From: Planctomycetota bacterium
GTDB taxonomy: Bacteria > Planctomycetota > Planctomycetia > Gemmatales > Gemmataceae
DNA: 39,278 bases
NCBI GenBank assembly: GCA_017306025.1
Contig: JAFKJJ010000545.1
Coordinates: 1-39,278 of the forward strand
Direction of reading: 5' to 3'
Numbering within the stretch: position 1 is the first letter of the stretch; every line of letters starts with the position of its first letter. Position numbers and translations under genes: made by a program. The notes below the pieces were generated by a model. That model had not been told where the DNA came from, ran no database searches, and saw only the letters and a program-made list of their open reading frames with translations. Shown piece after piece: positions 6,421 to 38,716 of the stretch.

Positions 6421-6999
6421 ATGTTGCTCCTCGATCACCTCGCGTTCCTCGACAAGATCCGCGAGAACCCCGCCGACCTCGCCGCCTGGCTCGTTTACGC
6501 GGACTGGCTAGACGAACAGGACGATCCCACCGGGACGTTCGTCCGGTTCTCGCTCGACTTCACCGCGGGCCGGGTGCCGGTCCGAGCGCACTCCGGCCAC
6601 GTGAAGCGGCTCCACGCGCTCGCCGCTCGCGCCCACGCCGAGACGCGCGGACTGATGGGGGTGTACCGGACCGGCCTCCCGCTCCGGCTACAGGTCTGTG
6701 AAACCGCCCTGGTCGGTCACGAGCGGGCGCGCGACATGTTCGGTTACCCGCGAACGTTCGTTTTCGTTGCCGTCCTCTCCGGCCGGCTGGTTCGCGGAAT
6801 GTGGCTGCGAGCCGAAGACGAAACGTGGCGCCCGGACCGGCCGGTGCTCGGGATGGCGCTCGACCGTAAGGCGATCGACATCGTGGACGCGGGCACCACG
6901 AGCGGCACCGTCAGCCTGTACTACCTCAATCACCACAAGATCCCCGACGGCACGATCCTCGTCGAAGGCCCGCCACCTGAACTCGACGTCCTCGCCTGA
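6421..6999 (+). CDS. TIGR02996-domain protein with EF-Tu domain-II-like C-terminus
   Basis: This 192-residue cytoplasmic protein begins with FLDKIRENPADLAAWLVYAD followed by WLDEQDDP, the TIGR02996 signature common in Gemmata-type planctomycetes. Residues about 105-190 line up by eye with translation-factor domain II: SGRLVRGMWLR resembles GRVERGIIKVG, a DRKAIDIVDAG segment resembles the FRKLLDEGRAG region, and YLNHHKIPDGTILVEGP resembles GIKREEIERGQVLAKPG of EF-Tu. No GTPase domain is present, so this would be a free-standing beta-barrel. The ATG follows the phosphoesterase stop by 2 bp. TIGR02996 function is unknown. Confidence 0.75.
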   Translation: MLLLDHLAFLDKIRENPADLAAWLVYADWLDEQDDPTGTFVRFSLDFTAGRVPVRAHSGHVKRLHALAARAHAETRGLMGVYRTGLPLRLQVCETALVGHERARDMFGYPRTFVFVAVLSGRLVRGMWLRAEDETWRPDRPVLGMALDRKAIDIVDAGTTSGTVSLYYLNHHKIPDGTILVEGPPPELDVLA

Positions 7000-30546: not shown

Positions 30547-31590
30547 ATGTTTCGTTCTCGCGCGCCAAGTCCGCGCACCCGTACTCGCGCCTTTACGCTC
30601 ATTGAACTGTTGGTGGTGATCGCCATTATTGCGATCCTCATCGGGCTGCTCCTGCCCGCCGTCCAGAAAGTGCGCGAGGCCGCCGCACGCATGTCCTGCG
30701 GCAACAACATCAAGCAGATGTCACTGGCGCTCCACAACGCCCACGACACCAACGGGCGGCTGCCGCCGATGGCCGCGTTCCAGTACGGCGGGGCGTACTA
30801 CGCGCCGTTCTTCTTCCACCTGTTGCCGTTCATCGAACAGCAGAACGTGTACAAGGCGGCCACACCCGTGTCCTCCGGCGGCGTCATCCCGCTGTGGGAC
30901 ACGCCCGGACAGGGGGGCACGCAGTACCTGCGCCAGACCCGCATCAAGACGTACGTCTGCCCGAGCGACGCCACGATCGCGACGAACGCGGCGACCGACT
31001 GGACGCCCGGCGAGGCCAGCTACGCGCCCAACTTCCAGGTGTTCGGCAACCCGAACTTCAACACCGGTTCGGCCAACGCGAACGACTGGGACGGAAAGAC
31101 AACGCTCGTGGGCATCACCGACGGCACGTCGAACACGATCGCGTTCGCCGAAAAGCTGTCGTACTGCCCGGGGGTCACCCCGAACGCGGTCAGCGCACCC
31201 AACGTGAAGAACGGCAACAACTCGGCCGGCGGGTCGTGGTGGCTGCGGGGCATCTACCACGGCGGGGCGTTTACCGGCAGCGGCGCACCGCCCAACGCGG
31301 ACAGCTATCCCGGCGACCGCGTTTCGGCGGTGTTCGGCGGGGGCGTCAGCGGCGACGGAACCCGGTGGTACGTCGGCACGGACTCGAAGCCGTACATCTT
31401 CGGCATCCCCGGCAACAACACCACCAGCGGCATCTGTGACCGCGGGGTGGCGTCGTCGCCGCACTCGGGACTGATCCAGGTCGGGCTCGTCGACGGCAGC
31501 GTGCGCAGCGTCAACAGCGGGATCAGCGCGACGACGTGGTGGTACGCCTGCACGCGCAACGGGGGCGAGACCCTCGGCAGCGACTGGTAA
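30547..31590 (+). CDS. DUF1559 pseudopilin-like protein
   Basis: This 347-residue protein has a class III/pseudopilin leader: [20 protein letters not shown], where prepilin peptidase would cleave before FTLIE and methylate the new N-terminus. The helix is followed by [20 protein letters not shown] and, near the end, the H-x9-DG motif ([12 protein letters not shown]) diagnostic of DUF1559. The family is hugely expanded in planctomycetes and probably forms surface or type II secretion-like structures. It has its own promoters and ribosome site and ends at a bidirectional terminator, so it is likely a single-gene unit with strong expression. Confidence 0.93.
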
Positions 31591-31608
31591 CCGAACGAAG
31601 AGTAACGA

Positions 31609-31651
31609 CCGGGTTCACGGGCCGGACGACTTGTTCGGCCCGTGAACCCGG
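31609..31651. terminator. Hairpin terminator between convergent genes
   Basis: CCGGGTTCACGGGCCG (31609-31624) pairs perfectly with CGGCCCGTGAACCCGG (31636-31651) around an 11-nt loop. It follows the DUF1559 gene and overlaps the last codons of the convergent DUF454 gene. The T-tract is weak (TTCTTC) on the plus strand. Confidence 0.75.
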
Positions 31652-32025
31652 TTCTTCGCGCGCGGAATGGTCGGCACCACGAACACGATCGTGCAGACGC
31701 CGACCGCCGCCAGTCCGCCGATCACGCACTTCACCCACACCGGCAGTCCGCTCAGCACGATGCTCAGCGTCACGACGGTCACCACGAGGCACACGGCCAA
31801 CACCTTCACCGGCCGCCGGATGCCCCGGTGCTCCTCCCAGTCGCGCAGGAGCCGGCCGAACACCGGCGACCGCTTCAGCCACCGCTCTAGCCGCGGCGAC
31901 GAGCGCGAAAAGCAGTACCCCGCGAGCAGAACCCAGGGCGTCGTCGGCAGACCGGGCAGGAGTACGCCGAGGTAGGCCAGTCCCACGCACACCAGCCCGG
32001 CCGCGAGGTACAGCAGCCGCTTCAA
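31615..32025 (-). CDS. DUF454 (YbaN-like) inner-membrane protein
   Basis: This 136-residue protein has three or four membrane segments and the family core LAYLGVLLPGLPTTPWVLLA followed by CFSRSSPRLERWL and WEEHRGIRRPVK. These match YbaN/DUF454. The function of the family is unknown. The start taken is TTG at 32025, giving MKRLLYLAAG; the frame is open upstream with a proline-rich stretch (PPASPPRPP) but no ATG or GTG was found in it. The 3' end lies in the terminator stem. It is divergent from the HEAT-repeat lipoprotein. Confidence 0.8.
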   Translation of the reverse strand: MKRLLYLAAGLVCVGLAYLGVLLPGLPTTPWVLLAGYCFSRSSPRLERWLKRSPVFGRLLRDWEEHRGIRRPVKVLAVCLVVTVVTLSIVLSGLPVWVKCVIGGLAAVGVCTIVFVVPTIPRAKNRVHGPNKSSGP

Positions 32026-32179: not shown

Positions 32180-34462
32180 ATGCGCTCCTCTGCACTTGCA
32201 CTTCTGATCGGCACCGCACTCGTCGGCTCCGGGTGCGGGAAGAAACAACAGCAGTCTCAGCCGGAAGCACCTCCGGATAAGGGCCAGGCAGAACCCAACG
32301 CCGACCCCGCGGCCGAGCGGAACAAGCAGCTCGCCGGGCTCAAGACCACCCGCCAGGAAACGCGTCGCGCCTCGATCGAGGAACTGTCGTGGCTCGCGGA
32401 AGACGACCCGGCGGTTCTGCCCGCGCTCGTCGAACTGCTCCGGGACAAGAGCACGGCCGGTGCCGGCAAGACGCTCGCGAACCAGATCAACAGCACCCGC
32501 GAGGCCGCGGCGCTCGCGATCATGGCCTGCACGAAGGGCGAGGCGGTGATGAAGGAGAAGGGCCTGGCCGTTCTCCGCGAGGGGCTGACCGACCCGTCGC
32601 CGGTGATCCGCGAGCACACCGCGTACACGATCGGACAACTCGGACCGGTCGCCCGGCCGCTCGCGCCCGACGTCCAGAAGCTCTGCACCGACCCGGACGC
32701 GAACGTTCGCGGGGCCGCGTTCGACGCGCTCCGCGTCACCGGCGTGGCCGACCCGGCCGCGCTGACGAAACTCCTCAAGCACGACAACGAGGAAGTCGTC
32801 CGACTGTCCGCGGAGCTGATTCCGCTGGTCGCCGAGATGCCCGCGGAAGCGGTCGCACCGCTCTCCGAGGCCCTGGGTAGCACCAATTCGAACGTGCGCG
32901 CCGCCGCGGCCGAAGGGCTGGCGCTCGCGGGTCCGAAGGCCGCGCCGGCGGCGCAACCGCTGGCCGACGTCATCAAAAAGAGCTACCCCGAGAAGTTCGA
33001 CCCGACGGCCCCCACGATGCGCCACGAGGGGCCAGAGCTGTCCTACTGGAAGGCGCTCGTCAAGATCGGCGAGCCCGCGGTCGGTCCGACCGCGAAGCTG
33101 TTGGAGCACCCGAACCCTCTGGTGCGGGCGCACGCGGCGCGCGTGCTCGGCGAGATCGGTCCGCCCGCGAAGGTCGCGGCAGACGCGCTAAAGAAGGCGC
33201 TCGGCGACACGTACGCGACCGTATGCGTGGAGGCCGCGGTCACGCTCTGCAAGCTCGGCGAGGCGAAGGACGACGCGCTCGCGCTCGTCAAGAAGGCGCT
33301 CGAAACGCCGACCCAGAACGTCGCGGCCACGGCCATCGAGGGCATCTACCGAATGGGCGCCGACGGCAAGCCGCTCGTCCCGCAGGCGCTCACGAAACTG
33401 AGCGACCCGAACCCGTACACGCGGCTCGCGGCCGTCACGCTCGCCGGATTGCTCCCGCCGGAAGAAGCCACGAAGGCGGCGGCGGACGTCGGCAAGCAGG
33501 CGACCGACGCCGAACCGGACATTCGCCGATGCGTCGGCCGCGTGCTGGAGCGCCTCGGTCCGGCCGGCGCGCCGGCCGCGGATGCGCTCGGCAAGGCCCT
33601 CCCCAACGAAAAGGAACTGGACATCCGCGATCAGTTCGTAGAGGCACTCGTCGCGATGGGGGCGGGAGCGAAGCCGGCGCTGCCGGGCCTTCTCCCGCTG
33701 CTCACACAGAAGGGGCTCGACGCCTCGCTCCGCACCCGCGCGCTCGCCGCGGTGGTGGCCGCCGATCCGAGTTCGCCCGAAGTGGCCGCGGCGCTCGTGA
33801 AGGCCGCGGCCGACGACGACCAGACCGTCCGCGCCGCCGCGGCCGCCGCGCTGGGCAAGCTGAACCCGCTCCCGCCCGACGCACTGGCCACGCTCCAGAG
33901 GATGGCGAAGTCGGACGCCCGAAACGGCCCACGGGTCGCCGCACTGCGAGCGATCACGGCCGCGGGTCCGCGCGCGAGGGCCGCGAAAGCCGACCTGGAG
34001 GCGATCGCGGGCGGTCCGCAACCCGGTTTGGCGCTGTGGGCGAAGGTCGCGTCGGCCGCGATCGACGGCGACGTGAAGCGGACCGCACCGACCGTGCGCG
34101 CCGGACTAGCCGACCGGAACGCACAAGCACGTTCGGCCGCGGCAGAGGCGCTGCTCGTGATCGGTCCGACGGACGCGGACCTTCCGATACTATTGAAGCT
34201 GATGAAAGACGTGGTTGGCACAACGCGGGCCGCGAGCGCGACGGCCGCGGGGCGGCTGGGCGCGTCGGCAAAGGACGCGGTGCCGCAGTTGCGGCGCCTG
34301 TTGGACGACCGCGAGGTCGAGGTCCGGGTTGCGGCGGCCGACGCGCTGGGTCAGATCGGCCCGGCGGCGCGACCCGCGATGGCGAAGCTCAACGAACTGC
34401 TCGCGGACCCGTCCGTCAAGCTCGCGGCTCAGCGGGCTCTCGACAAGATCGGGACGAAGTGA
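32180..34462 (+). CDS. HEAT-repeat lipoprotein
   Basis: This 760-residue protein has a lipoprotein-like signal (ALALLIGTALVGSGC, then GKKQQQ); the lipobox is imperfect. A polar linker follows and from about residue 60 to the end it is made of helical HEAT/PBS-type repeats, e.g. DPSPVIREHTAYTIGQLGP, HPNPLVRAHAARVLGEIGPP and DREVEVRVAAADALGQIGPA. Such solenoids are protein-interaction scaffolds. No catalytic domain is visible. The ATG at 32180 is the natural start. Just after it lies the integrase remnant. Confidence 0.88.
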   Translation: MRSSALALLIGTALVGSGCGKKQQQSQPEAPPDKGQAEPNADPAAERNKQLAGLKTTRQETRRASIEELSWLAEDDPAVLPALVELLRDKSTAGAGKTLANQINSTREAAALAIMACTKGEAVMKEKGLAVLREGLTDPSPVIREHTAYTIGQLGPVARPLAPDVQKLCTDPDANVRGAAFDALRVTGVADPAALTKLLKHDNEEVVRLSAELIPLVAEMPAEAVAPLSEALGSTNSNVRAAAAEGLALAGPKAAPAAQPLADVIKKSYPEKFDPTAPTMRHEGPELSYWKALVKIGEPAVGPTAKLLEHPNPLVRAHAARVLGEIGPPAKVAADALKKALGDTYATVCVEAAVTLCKLGEAKDDALALVKKALETPTQNVAATAIEGIYRMGADGKPLVPQALTKLSDPNPYTRLAAVTLAGLLPPEEATKAAADVGKQATDAEPDIRRCVGRVLERLGPAGAPAADALGKALPNEKELDIRDQFVEALVAMGAGAKPALPGLLPLLTQKGLDASLRTRALAAVVAADPSSPEVAAALVKAAADDDQTVRAAAAAALGKLNPLPPDALATLQRMAKSDARNGPRVAALRAITAAGPRARAAKADLEAIAGGPQPGLALWAKVASAAIDGDVKRTAPTVRAGLADRNAQARSAAAEALLVIGPTDADLPILLKLMKDVVGTTRAASATAAGRLGASAKDAVPQLRRLLDDREVEVRVAAADALGQIGPAARPAMAKLNELLADPSVKLAAQRALDKIGTK

Positions 34463-34531: not shown

Positions 34532-34642
34532 GAAGTGGAGTGGCTCGGTCGCAAGGACGTGCGGACCACGGTGATTTATATCCACGTCTTGCACCGGAAC
34601 CCGGCCGGTGTGGTCAGCCCGCTGGATCGGCTCGCGCAATAG
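34532..34642 (+). pseudogene. 3' remnant of an integron-type tyrosine recombinase (IntI)
   Basis: The 36 codons read [20 protein letters not shown] then [16 protein letters not shown] and a TAG stop. This lines up with the last part of integron integrases ([20 protein letters not shown], then a GVRSPLD motif). The catalytic tyrosine of TTVIY is kept; the LGH histidine is arginine. Upstream, the frame is closed by TGA at 34496-34498 and no other integrase motifs are seen, so the first ~280 codons are gone. It points in the same direction as the cassette that follows, as reported for planctomycete and Treponema integrons. Confidence 0.8.
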
Positions 34643-34849
34643 GGCGACCGGCACGGGAAACCGTAACACGACCTCCCCGAACCGATCGGTCGAAAGATAC
34701 GAACTGGAAACCCGTTGCGACTGAGTGAGTGATCAGTTATTTTGTGCGTTAGTGAGACCGGGCGTGTATTAGGGCGACCGGATGGGTCGCCCCTAACGCG
34801 CAACGCTGGTCAAGCTAATACCTTGTTCGGCCGCAGAGGAGCGCGACGG
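34643..34849. other. attI-like region between integrase remnant and first cassette
   Basis: This stretch has no gene. It ends in a GTTCGGC at 34825-34831, a core-site-like heptamer (GTTRRRY with one mismatch), 18 bp before the cassette gene start. Inside lie a direct repeat TAGGGCGACCGG (34640-34651 and 34770-34781), an 11-bp inverted repeat TTGTGCGTTAG/CTAACGCGCAA (34742-34752, 34793-34803; one mismatch) enclosing the hairpin GGGCGACC/GGTCGCCC, and a palindrome ACCGATCGGT (34681-34690). Repeats next to the core site suit an attI, where the integrase binds several sites. Experimental proof is lacking. Confidence 0.55.
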
Positions 34850-35269
34850 ATGACGGAAGCGGCCGAGCCAGATGAAGTCGCTCCCCTCTGGCACACCCGA
34901 CTCGGCGCCTTGCGGTGGCACACAGCAGAGCAGTTGTGGTTTGCCGAGGTAGACCGAGTGCTGGTGCGGGACGGCCAAGTTGGCGTCGCCTCGCCCGCCG
35001 ACCTCGAACCGGCTGCCACGTTCCTCGACTGGCTCGGCGTCAACGGAGAGCTCTTCCGGACGCGGGCGGTGACAGCGATGTTCGATTACGACTTGGTATT
35101 GGACTACGACCTCGCGGAGAATGAGTTGGCTTCCAAGCTGGTGATCCACAGCCTTACTGTCCGCAACGGCACGACGCAGGCGTGGCTAGACACCGGTGGC
35201 GCGACGACAGGATATCTCTGCCCCATCCGTCTTGACAGTCAGCACCGCATCATCGGCATGGGGTTATGA
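34850..35269 (+). CDS. Integron cassette gene, hypothetical protein
   Basis: This 139-residue protein has no signal or membrane helix. It contains WHTRLGALRWHTAEQLWFAE near the start, AATFLDWLGVNGELFRTRAV, a short acidic FDYDLVLDYDLAENEL, and ends CPIRLDSQHRIIGMGL. The opening resembles small domains of the DUF2262 or DUF6985 sort, but I cannot assign it. A GAGGAG site precedes the ATG at 34850. The gene is exactly framed by an attI-type core (GTTCGGC at 34825) and an attC-like site starting 9 bp after its stop, the structure of a single-gene mobile cassette. Cassettes usually lack promoters; none is seen here. Confidence 0.75.
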   Translation: MTEAAEPDEVAPLWHTRLGALRWHTAEQLWFAEVDRVLVRDGQVGVASPADLEPAATFLDWLGVNGELFRTRAVTAMFDYDLVLDYDLAENELASKLVIHSLTVRNGTTQAWLDTGGATTGYLCPIRLDSQHRIIGMGL

Positions 35270-35277
35270 GCGACGAT

Positions 35278-35368
35278 GCCGAACCCGGCGCTGCACCTGA
35301 CACCGCCGGCTGACTTGGGACGCACTGCTCATCCGGTGATGGCGGTGCAGGTGAGCTGGTTGTTCGCG
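35278..35368. repeat. attC-like recombination site
   Basis: The outer boxes are GCCGAAC (35278-35284) and GTTCGCG (35362-35368), five of seven paired. Symmetric 5-nt unpaired spacers follow (CCGGC 35285-35289, TGGTT 35357-35361). Inside, a 16-bp stem joins GCT, CACCTG and CACCGCC (35290-35307) to GGCGGTG, CAGGTG, AGC (35341-35356), with two unpaired bases (G35293, A35300) on the left arm only. Extrahelical bases on one arm are the hallmark of folded attC. The fourth base of the core is C rather than a purine. The last six bases of the right box would belong to whatever follows the array. Confidence 0.75.
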
Positions 35369-35393: not shown

Positions 35394-36047
35394 CTACTTC
35401 GGCTCCGCTGCGAGCTGATCGACGACCTGCTTCACCGCCTCCGGCGCGCTCGTGCTGATCCCCGTGTACTGCCGGCGTGCGCCGGAGGCGGTGATCTGCA
35501 CCGAGGCGCGGAACACGTACTTTCCGTCCTCGCGATCCAGCGAGCGGTCCTCCGGCTTCACGCCGTACTTGTCGAGCTGCGCGTACAGCGGCGACACGCC
35601 CTCGGGCGCTTCCAGCGCTCCACCCGGTACGACGCCACCCGCCGGGACCAGCGGGACGCCGGGCGAATCGATCCGCAACCCTTCGTCGTCTTTTGTCCGA
35701 CCTGCGAGCGAGGCCGGTGTGCTCGTCTTGCCCGGAATGAACGTTCCCTTGAACCGCTCCGGGTCGTCGGTGTAGCCCGCCTTGCCGCCGGCCGGAGACG
35801 TGAGTGGGTCCGGCCGGCCCCGCGGACCGGTCGCCCGATCCGGCAGGGGGAGGTCTTGTTTCGGGATCTTCGTCGGCCCGTAAACGAGCGGGTCGCGATC
35901 CTTCCCACGCGAGACGCCGGTGCCCTGTGTCTCTCTGGTCGATTTGCACCCCACCAGAACGAGCAGAGCGGCCAAACAAACGCACGCGACCCACCGGCGC
36001 GCGGGTCGTCCGGTCGTTCCGTGTGTGTGTCGCGTGCAGGCCGTCAT
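35394..36047 (-). CDS. Lipoprotein of unknown function
   Basis: This 217-residue protein has a long basic N-terminus, a hydrophobic core and a lipobox (VACVCLAALLVLVGC, then KSTRE), so it is likely lipid-anchored. The middle is proline and glycine rich and looks disordered (KIPKQDLPLPDRATGPRGRP, VPLVPAGGVVPGG). The C-terminal domain, about 150-217, looks folded (LYAQLDKYGVKPEDRSL, KYVFRASVQITASGARRQYT, APEAVKQVVDQLAAEP). No family is recognised. ATG at 36047. It ends 25 bp after the attC-like site, convergent with the cassette. Confidence 0.75.
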   Translation of the reverse strand: MTACTRHTHGTTGRPARRWVACVCLAALLVLVGCKSTRETQGTGVSRGKDRDPLVYGPTKIPKQDLPLPDRATGPRGRPDPLTSPAGGKAGYTDDPERFKGTFIPGKTSTPASLAGRTKDDEGLRIDSPGVPLVPAGGVVPGGALEAPEGVSPLYAQLDKYGVKPEDRSLDREDGKYVFRASVQITASGARRQYTGISTSAPEAVKQVVDQLAAEPK

Positions 36048-38637: not shown

Positions 38638-38716
38638 TGTGGTCCGGTCGCGGAGCGACCGGATTTCACCGCCCTCGTTACAACAAGACCTCCGGTCGCT
38701 CCGCGACCGGACCACA
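38638..38716. repeat. Nested palindrome between scpB and the bestrophin gene
   Basis: Two 26-nt arms (38638-38663 and 38691-38716) are perfect inverted copies around a 27-nt loop. Each arm also contains its own 9-bp hairpin (TCCGGTCGC-GGA-GCGACCGGA), so one long stem or two small hairpins can form. The right arm ends 14 bp before the bestrophin start, close to its ribosome site. Confidence 0.85.

Follow-up and report, generated by a model that had tools for sequence, protein, structure and literature searches.

Our analysis of a 39,278-nucleotide window of planctomycete DNA showed that positions 35278–35368 (forward strand) are a genuine attC site closing one gene cassette. Judging from the sequence of the locus, this site very probably belongs to the only cassette of a truncated planctomycete integron, inserted there at attI. 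The order of elements supports this reading: first a stump of the integron integrase (IntI), next a core resembling attI, then the 537-bp cassette with its 139-aa ORF, and the attC at the end. The arm sequences of the site also recur in arrays beside full-length IntIs, both in this genome and in its relatives. As a broken-down integron with a single attC, the locus falls within a known class of element and has a core typical of its lineage; the biology is ordinary, and the lineage a poorly described one.

Direct reading of the sequence gave, for the left half of the site, an R″ box GCCGAAC (35278–35284), a spacer CCGGC, and L″ GCT-(G)-CACCTG-(A)-CACCGCC (35290–35307). The right half consists of L′ GGCGGTG-CAGGTG-AGC (35341–35356), a spacer TGGTT, and R′ GTTCGCG (35362–35368). 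The stem has 16 bp (3+6+7), and the unpaired G (35293) and A (35300), with a spacing of 6, lie on the left (R″-L″) arm only. This reading confirmed the geometry given in the initial annotation (7-nt boxes, 5-nt spacers, a 16-bp stem, and two bulges on one arm). The bulges had been singled out there. They are present, but two or three extrahelical bases on the R″-L″ arm have been described for attC sites, so they belong to normal attC anatomy (PMC2727003, PMC3053210). A spacing of six has been reported to give the most efficient excision, and T-N6-C sites to be excised well by several integrases (PMC3053210). The site shares further traits with known attC sites (Bouvier 2009, PMC2727003; Larouche and Roy 2011, PMC3053210): the AAC and GTT triplets, here in GCCGAAC and GTTCGCG, an unpaired central spacer, two extrahelical bases 6 apart on the R″-L″ arm, a variable terminal loop, and a location directly after a small ORF. 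It differs from them in two respects. At position 4 of the core it has C (GTTCG) instead of the consensus R, and its extrahelical bases, read on the bottom strand, are T-N6-C instead of the G of most described sites. Folded as a single strand, the bottom strand gave z = −2.46.

Upstream of the cassette, 34538–34642 (+ strand) encodes what is left of an integron integrase, a C-terminal stump. It comprises the last 32 aligned residues and the stop codon (TIGR02249 positions 284–315, E = 4.4e-7), which is only about 10% of the protein, so the attI at this locus has no intact intI beside it. The stump matched 16 related IntIs at 53–69% (tblastn, best E = 1.5e-10) and retains the catalytic Tyr, with LLGH altered to WLGR. 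It is followed by an attI-like site (34793–34831, + strand) with CTAA-N6-GTTCGGC at 34815–34831, which matched the attI region of a related genome (G008) at 83% over 42 nt (34793–34834). Related loci totalling 485 kb contain CTAA-N6-GTTCGGC 12 times, nearly always directly downstream of IntI. The heptamer at 34825 is, by its sequence context, probably the core of this attI-like site. An imperfect hairpin, TAGGGCGACC-GGAT-GGGTCGCCCCTA, lies upstream of the core (34770–34795, + strand), and several related attI regions have an inverted repeat at a like position.

The cassette (34826–35362, + strand) is bounded by the attI core and R′ of the attC; its terminal core, GTTCGCG, is imperfect. Its ORF (34850–35269, + strand) has AGAGGAG 8 nt upstream and a stop codon 8 nt ahead of the attC. 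This ORF is an orphan: it had no significant match in Pfam or NCBIfam and none in 58 relatives. Neither a consensus promoter nor a consensus terminator was found within the integron element. The left boundary is the crossover core GTTCGGC (34825–34831, + strand), whose reverse complement is identical to the R″ box of the attC at 7 of 7 positions, as compared with 5 of 7 between R″ and its own R′. In other arrays, among the 39 informative cassette pairs (those in which the two cores differ), R″ equalled the preceding core exactly in 21 and its own R′ in 2. The window therefore bears the expected mark of cassette insertion. The initial annotation had rightly pointed to this heptamer on the other side of the cassette. 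GTTCGGC by itself is common (17 occurrences on the + strand, 37 on both strands), so the weight of the one at 34825 comes from its attI context and its exact match to R″. GTTCGGC is also contained in a strong hairpin at 31590–31657 (arm ACCGGGTTCACGGGCCGGAC), which was rejected as an attC for want of the bulge geometry, despite a weak match at 31590–31639 (17.3 bits, E = 0.018) to R2, a covariance model built from 28 family sites with the window site left out.

The element lies between a HEAT-repeat protein gene of 760 aa (32180–34462, + strand; Pfam HEAT_2, E = 4.6e-55) and a lipoprotein-like gene of 217 aa (35394–36047, − strand), which stands upstream of leuB in congeners with 48–64% identity. 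These two genes and leuB are conserved neighbours across the genus. The gap between the convergent pair is 932 bp in the window, of which 831 bp (34538–35368) are integron-derived, as compared with 60–226 bp in nine congeners. Both the covariance models and the hairpin scanner found one attC at this locus. The window and the stump are together on one 45-kb contig of G000, a fragmented draft genome of 6.64 Mb in 707 contigs (82% complete). Between the corresponding two genes, genome G001 has a different 1.6-kb insert (L212:5573–7220) with a 27-nt attC-like left arm (6442–6468) and further degenerate pieces. An integron may thus have been present at this position before. Downstream of leuB, the window contains an inverted repeat whose 26-bp arms match perfectly across a 27-nt loop (38638–38716).

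GC-rich DNA contains many inverted repeats, and with GTTCGGC alone so common, a chance hairpin, a terminator or a REP-like element might be mistaken for an attC. We consider such an origin of the site exceedingly improbable. It is the sole 13/13 stem that the hairpin scanner found in the window, and the same scanner found no hairpin equal to it in 200 Markov shuffles of the window. On related loci the scanner returned 84 matches in the real sequence and 0 in the reversed sequence. R1, a covariance model trained on 18 attCs of GTTRRRY-like type (A or G as the fourth base), none of them planctomycete, ranked 35278–35368 first (33.7 bits, E = 1.8e-6) and gave 101 matches at E ≤ 1 in related loci; R2 scored the site at 65.2 bits (E = 2.8e-15). 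Over 98 nt that include the loop, the site shares 97% identity with one attC of genome G002. In the consensus attC structure of the relatives, 9 pairs have changed on both sides, and the covariation score was 0.330 versus 0.079 when shuffled, a value inflated by the preselection of these sequences for pairing. Together with the cassette context, the shuffles and the covariance models bear out the attC identity first proposed from the letters alone.

A genuine attC could also belong to a solitary cassette that an integrase encoded elsewhere in the genome placed off-target, where no integron had ever been. The genome does have an intact IntI on contig C574, and other contigs carry solitary or weak attC matches. 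We regard this as very unlikely, since the stump and the attI-like site stand directly upstream of the cassette in the expected order and spacing. A variant of the truncated-integron reading concerns its origin: the fragment may have arrived already truncated, by transposition or illegitimate recombination, and not have decayed in place. The chance of this seems only a little short of even. Most congeners have no insert at the locus, and the stump is closer to the IntIs of G008 and G037 (67–69%) than to the C574 IntI of its own genome (55%). The different insert of G001 with its attC-like arm, on the other hand, fits an older resident integron.

For the truncated integron, known integrons suggest the following course. 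A circular cassette would once have been joined to attI by the integron integrase, which would have cut the folded bottom strand of the attC within GTT, the choice of strand being made by the two extrahelical bases. Most of intI would have been lost after insertion, leaving a remnant presumably unable to move by itself. Whether the intact C574 integrase could still act on the window attC in trans is, in our estimate, about an even bet. This integrase is accompanied by six attCs on its contig. It has the residues R138, H261, R264, H287, and Y296, which we take to be catalytic and which are all invariant in the alignment.

The genome has 14 matches to the site at E ≤ 0.1, and the relatives have arrays beside integrases. 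The repeat is thus not unique, and it follows small unrelated genes as anticipated (median of the preceding genes 125 aa, by longest ORF). On one chromosome of G002 (C1), attC matches number at least 103 and make up a very large, scattered set of cassettes, grouped around 1.35–1.38 (L064 = 1366001–1386000), 4.38–4.41, 5.16–5.23, 5.50–5.51, and 7.59–7.62 Mb. Large planctomycete cassette arrays are thereby indicated; no description of them was found in the literature searched, where a search for integrons with Gemmata returned nothing relevant. In G035 there are two integrase loci, L047 and L048, whose attI cores differ (GTTCGGC and GTTAGGC). The first cassette of L048 has R″ GCCTAAC, matching its GTTAGGC core, and the two loci form a natural pair for the study of core preference.

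Sedentary chromosomal integrons with intI directed towards attI are known from Treponema (PMC3607928). The present locus is from a different phylum, has a different core, and has intI reduced to a stump. Among 16 related integron loci, intI is directed towards the array in 14, and only L058 and L061 show the usual divergent layout. In L078, L100, and L121 (labelled Acidobacteria or Thermoanaerobaculia) the attCs are on the intI strand; in nearly all other phyla found they are on the opposite strand. CALIN elements, which are attC clusters without an integrase (PMC8618304, PMC9024848), share with the window a cassette without an intact local intI. Unlike them, the window has one attC only, and the intI stump and attI remain. 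By default, IntegronFinder 2.0 counts CALINs from two attCs upward (PMC9024848), so it would not report this lone attC.

GTTCGGC is the usual core in this lineage and not an oddity. Among 95 related attCs (matches with well-matched outer boxes), position 4 is C in 92, the core is GTTCGGC in 84, and T-N6-C is present in 79. In other phyla the core begins mostly with GTTA or GTTG, and GTTCGGC is occasional (Gallionella, Rhodocyclaceae, Acidobacteria). The full GTTRRRY core is absent from the window site, position 4 being C in both GTTCGCG and GTTCGGC. The initial annotation was therefore correct about the C, but not about its being unusual. As sequence conservation of attC sites is limited to AAC and GTT (PMC2727003) and C occupies position 4 in nearly all related sites, we did not treat GTTRRRY as defining. 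The related expectation that tools built on GTTRRRY may miss the site holds for a literal string search. It does not hold for structure models, since R1, built without C-core sites, found it. Most attCs of this planctomycete family would escape a strict GTTRRRY string search but are found by structure-based models.

The idea that attC sites might be translated at the ends of planctomycete proteins was supported for some cassette proteins, in another frame than the one proposed. Counts of longest ORFs by position suggested tails in all three frames, but these are mostly spurious in GC-rich DNA. Where an upstream frame was open, a coding-like GC3 signature was found in 18 of 47 frame-0 cases and in 1 of 82 cases in the other frames. 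By codon score, 26 of 69 cassettes had a confident gene; 19 of these genes stop before the attC and 7 run into it. All seven do so in frame 0, with AEPxAAPD at or near the end, and none has NPALHLTPP, the peptide suggested at first. NPALHLTPP was rejected as a real protein tail because GC3 and codon scores leave frame 0 only; in the window it is in the frame of the cassette ORF but beyond its stop codon. A 32-codon ORF from the ATG at 35276 spans the window attC, and there is no evidence of its use. The bodies of the seven tailed proteins showed no similarity to one another; one of them, encoded on C574, belongs to the GrpB family (E = 6e-41, residues 7–167 of 194). These data suggest that the attC is translated in frame 0 (AEPGAAPDTA) at the ends of some cassette proteins.

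We tentatively suggest, as a possibility somewhat less likely than its negation, that the family has an integron dialect of its own: a near-fixed GTTCGGC in attI and attC, T-N6-C, intI mostly directed towards the array, more than 100 attCs in one genome, and a frame-0 AEPxAAPD tail on unrelated proteins. The altered core may have been accompanied by co-evolution of the integrase, and selection may act on the reading frame. The tailed proteins offer a concrete, predicted example of how a single recombination site can add an identical C-terminal peptide to proteins that are otherwise unrelated.
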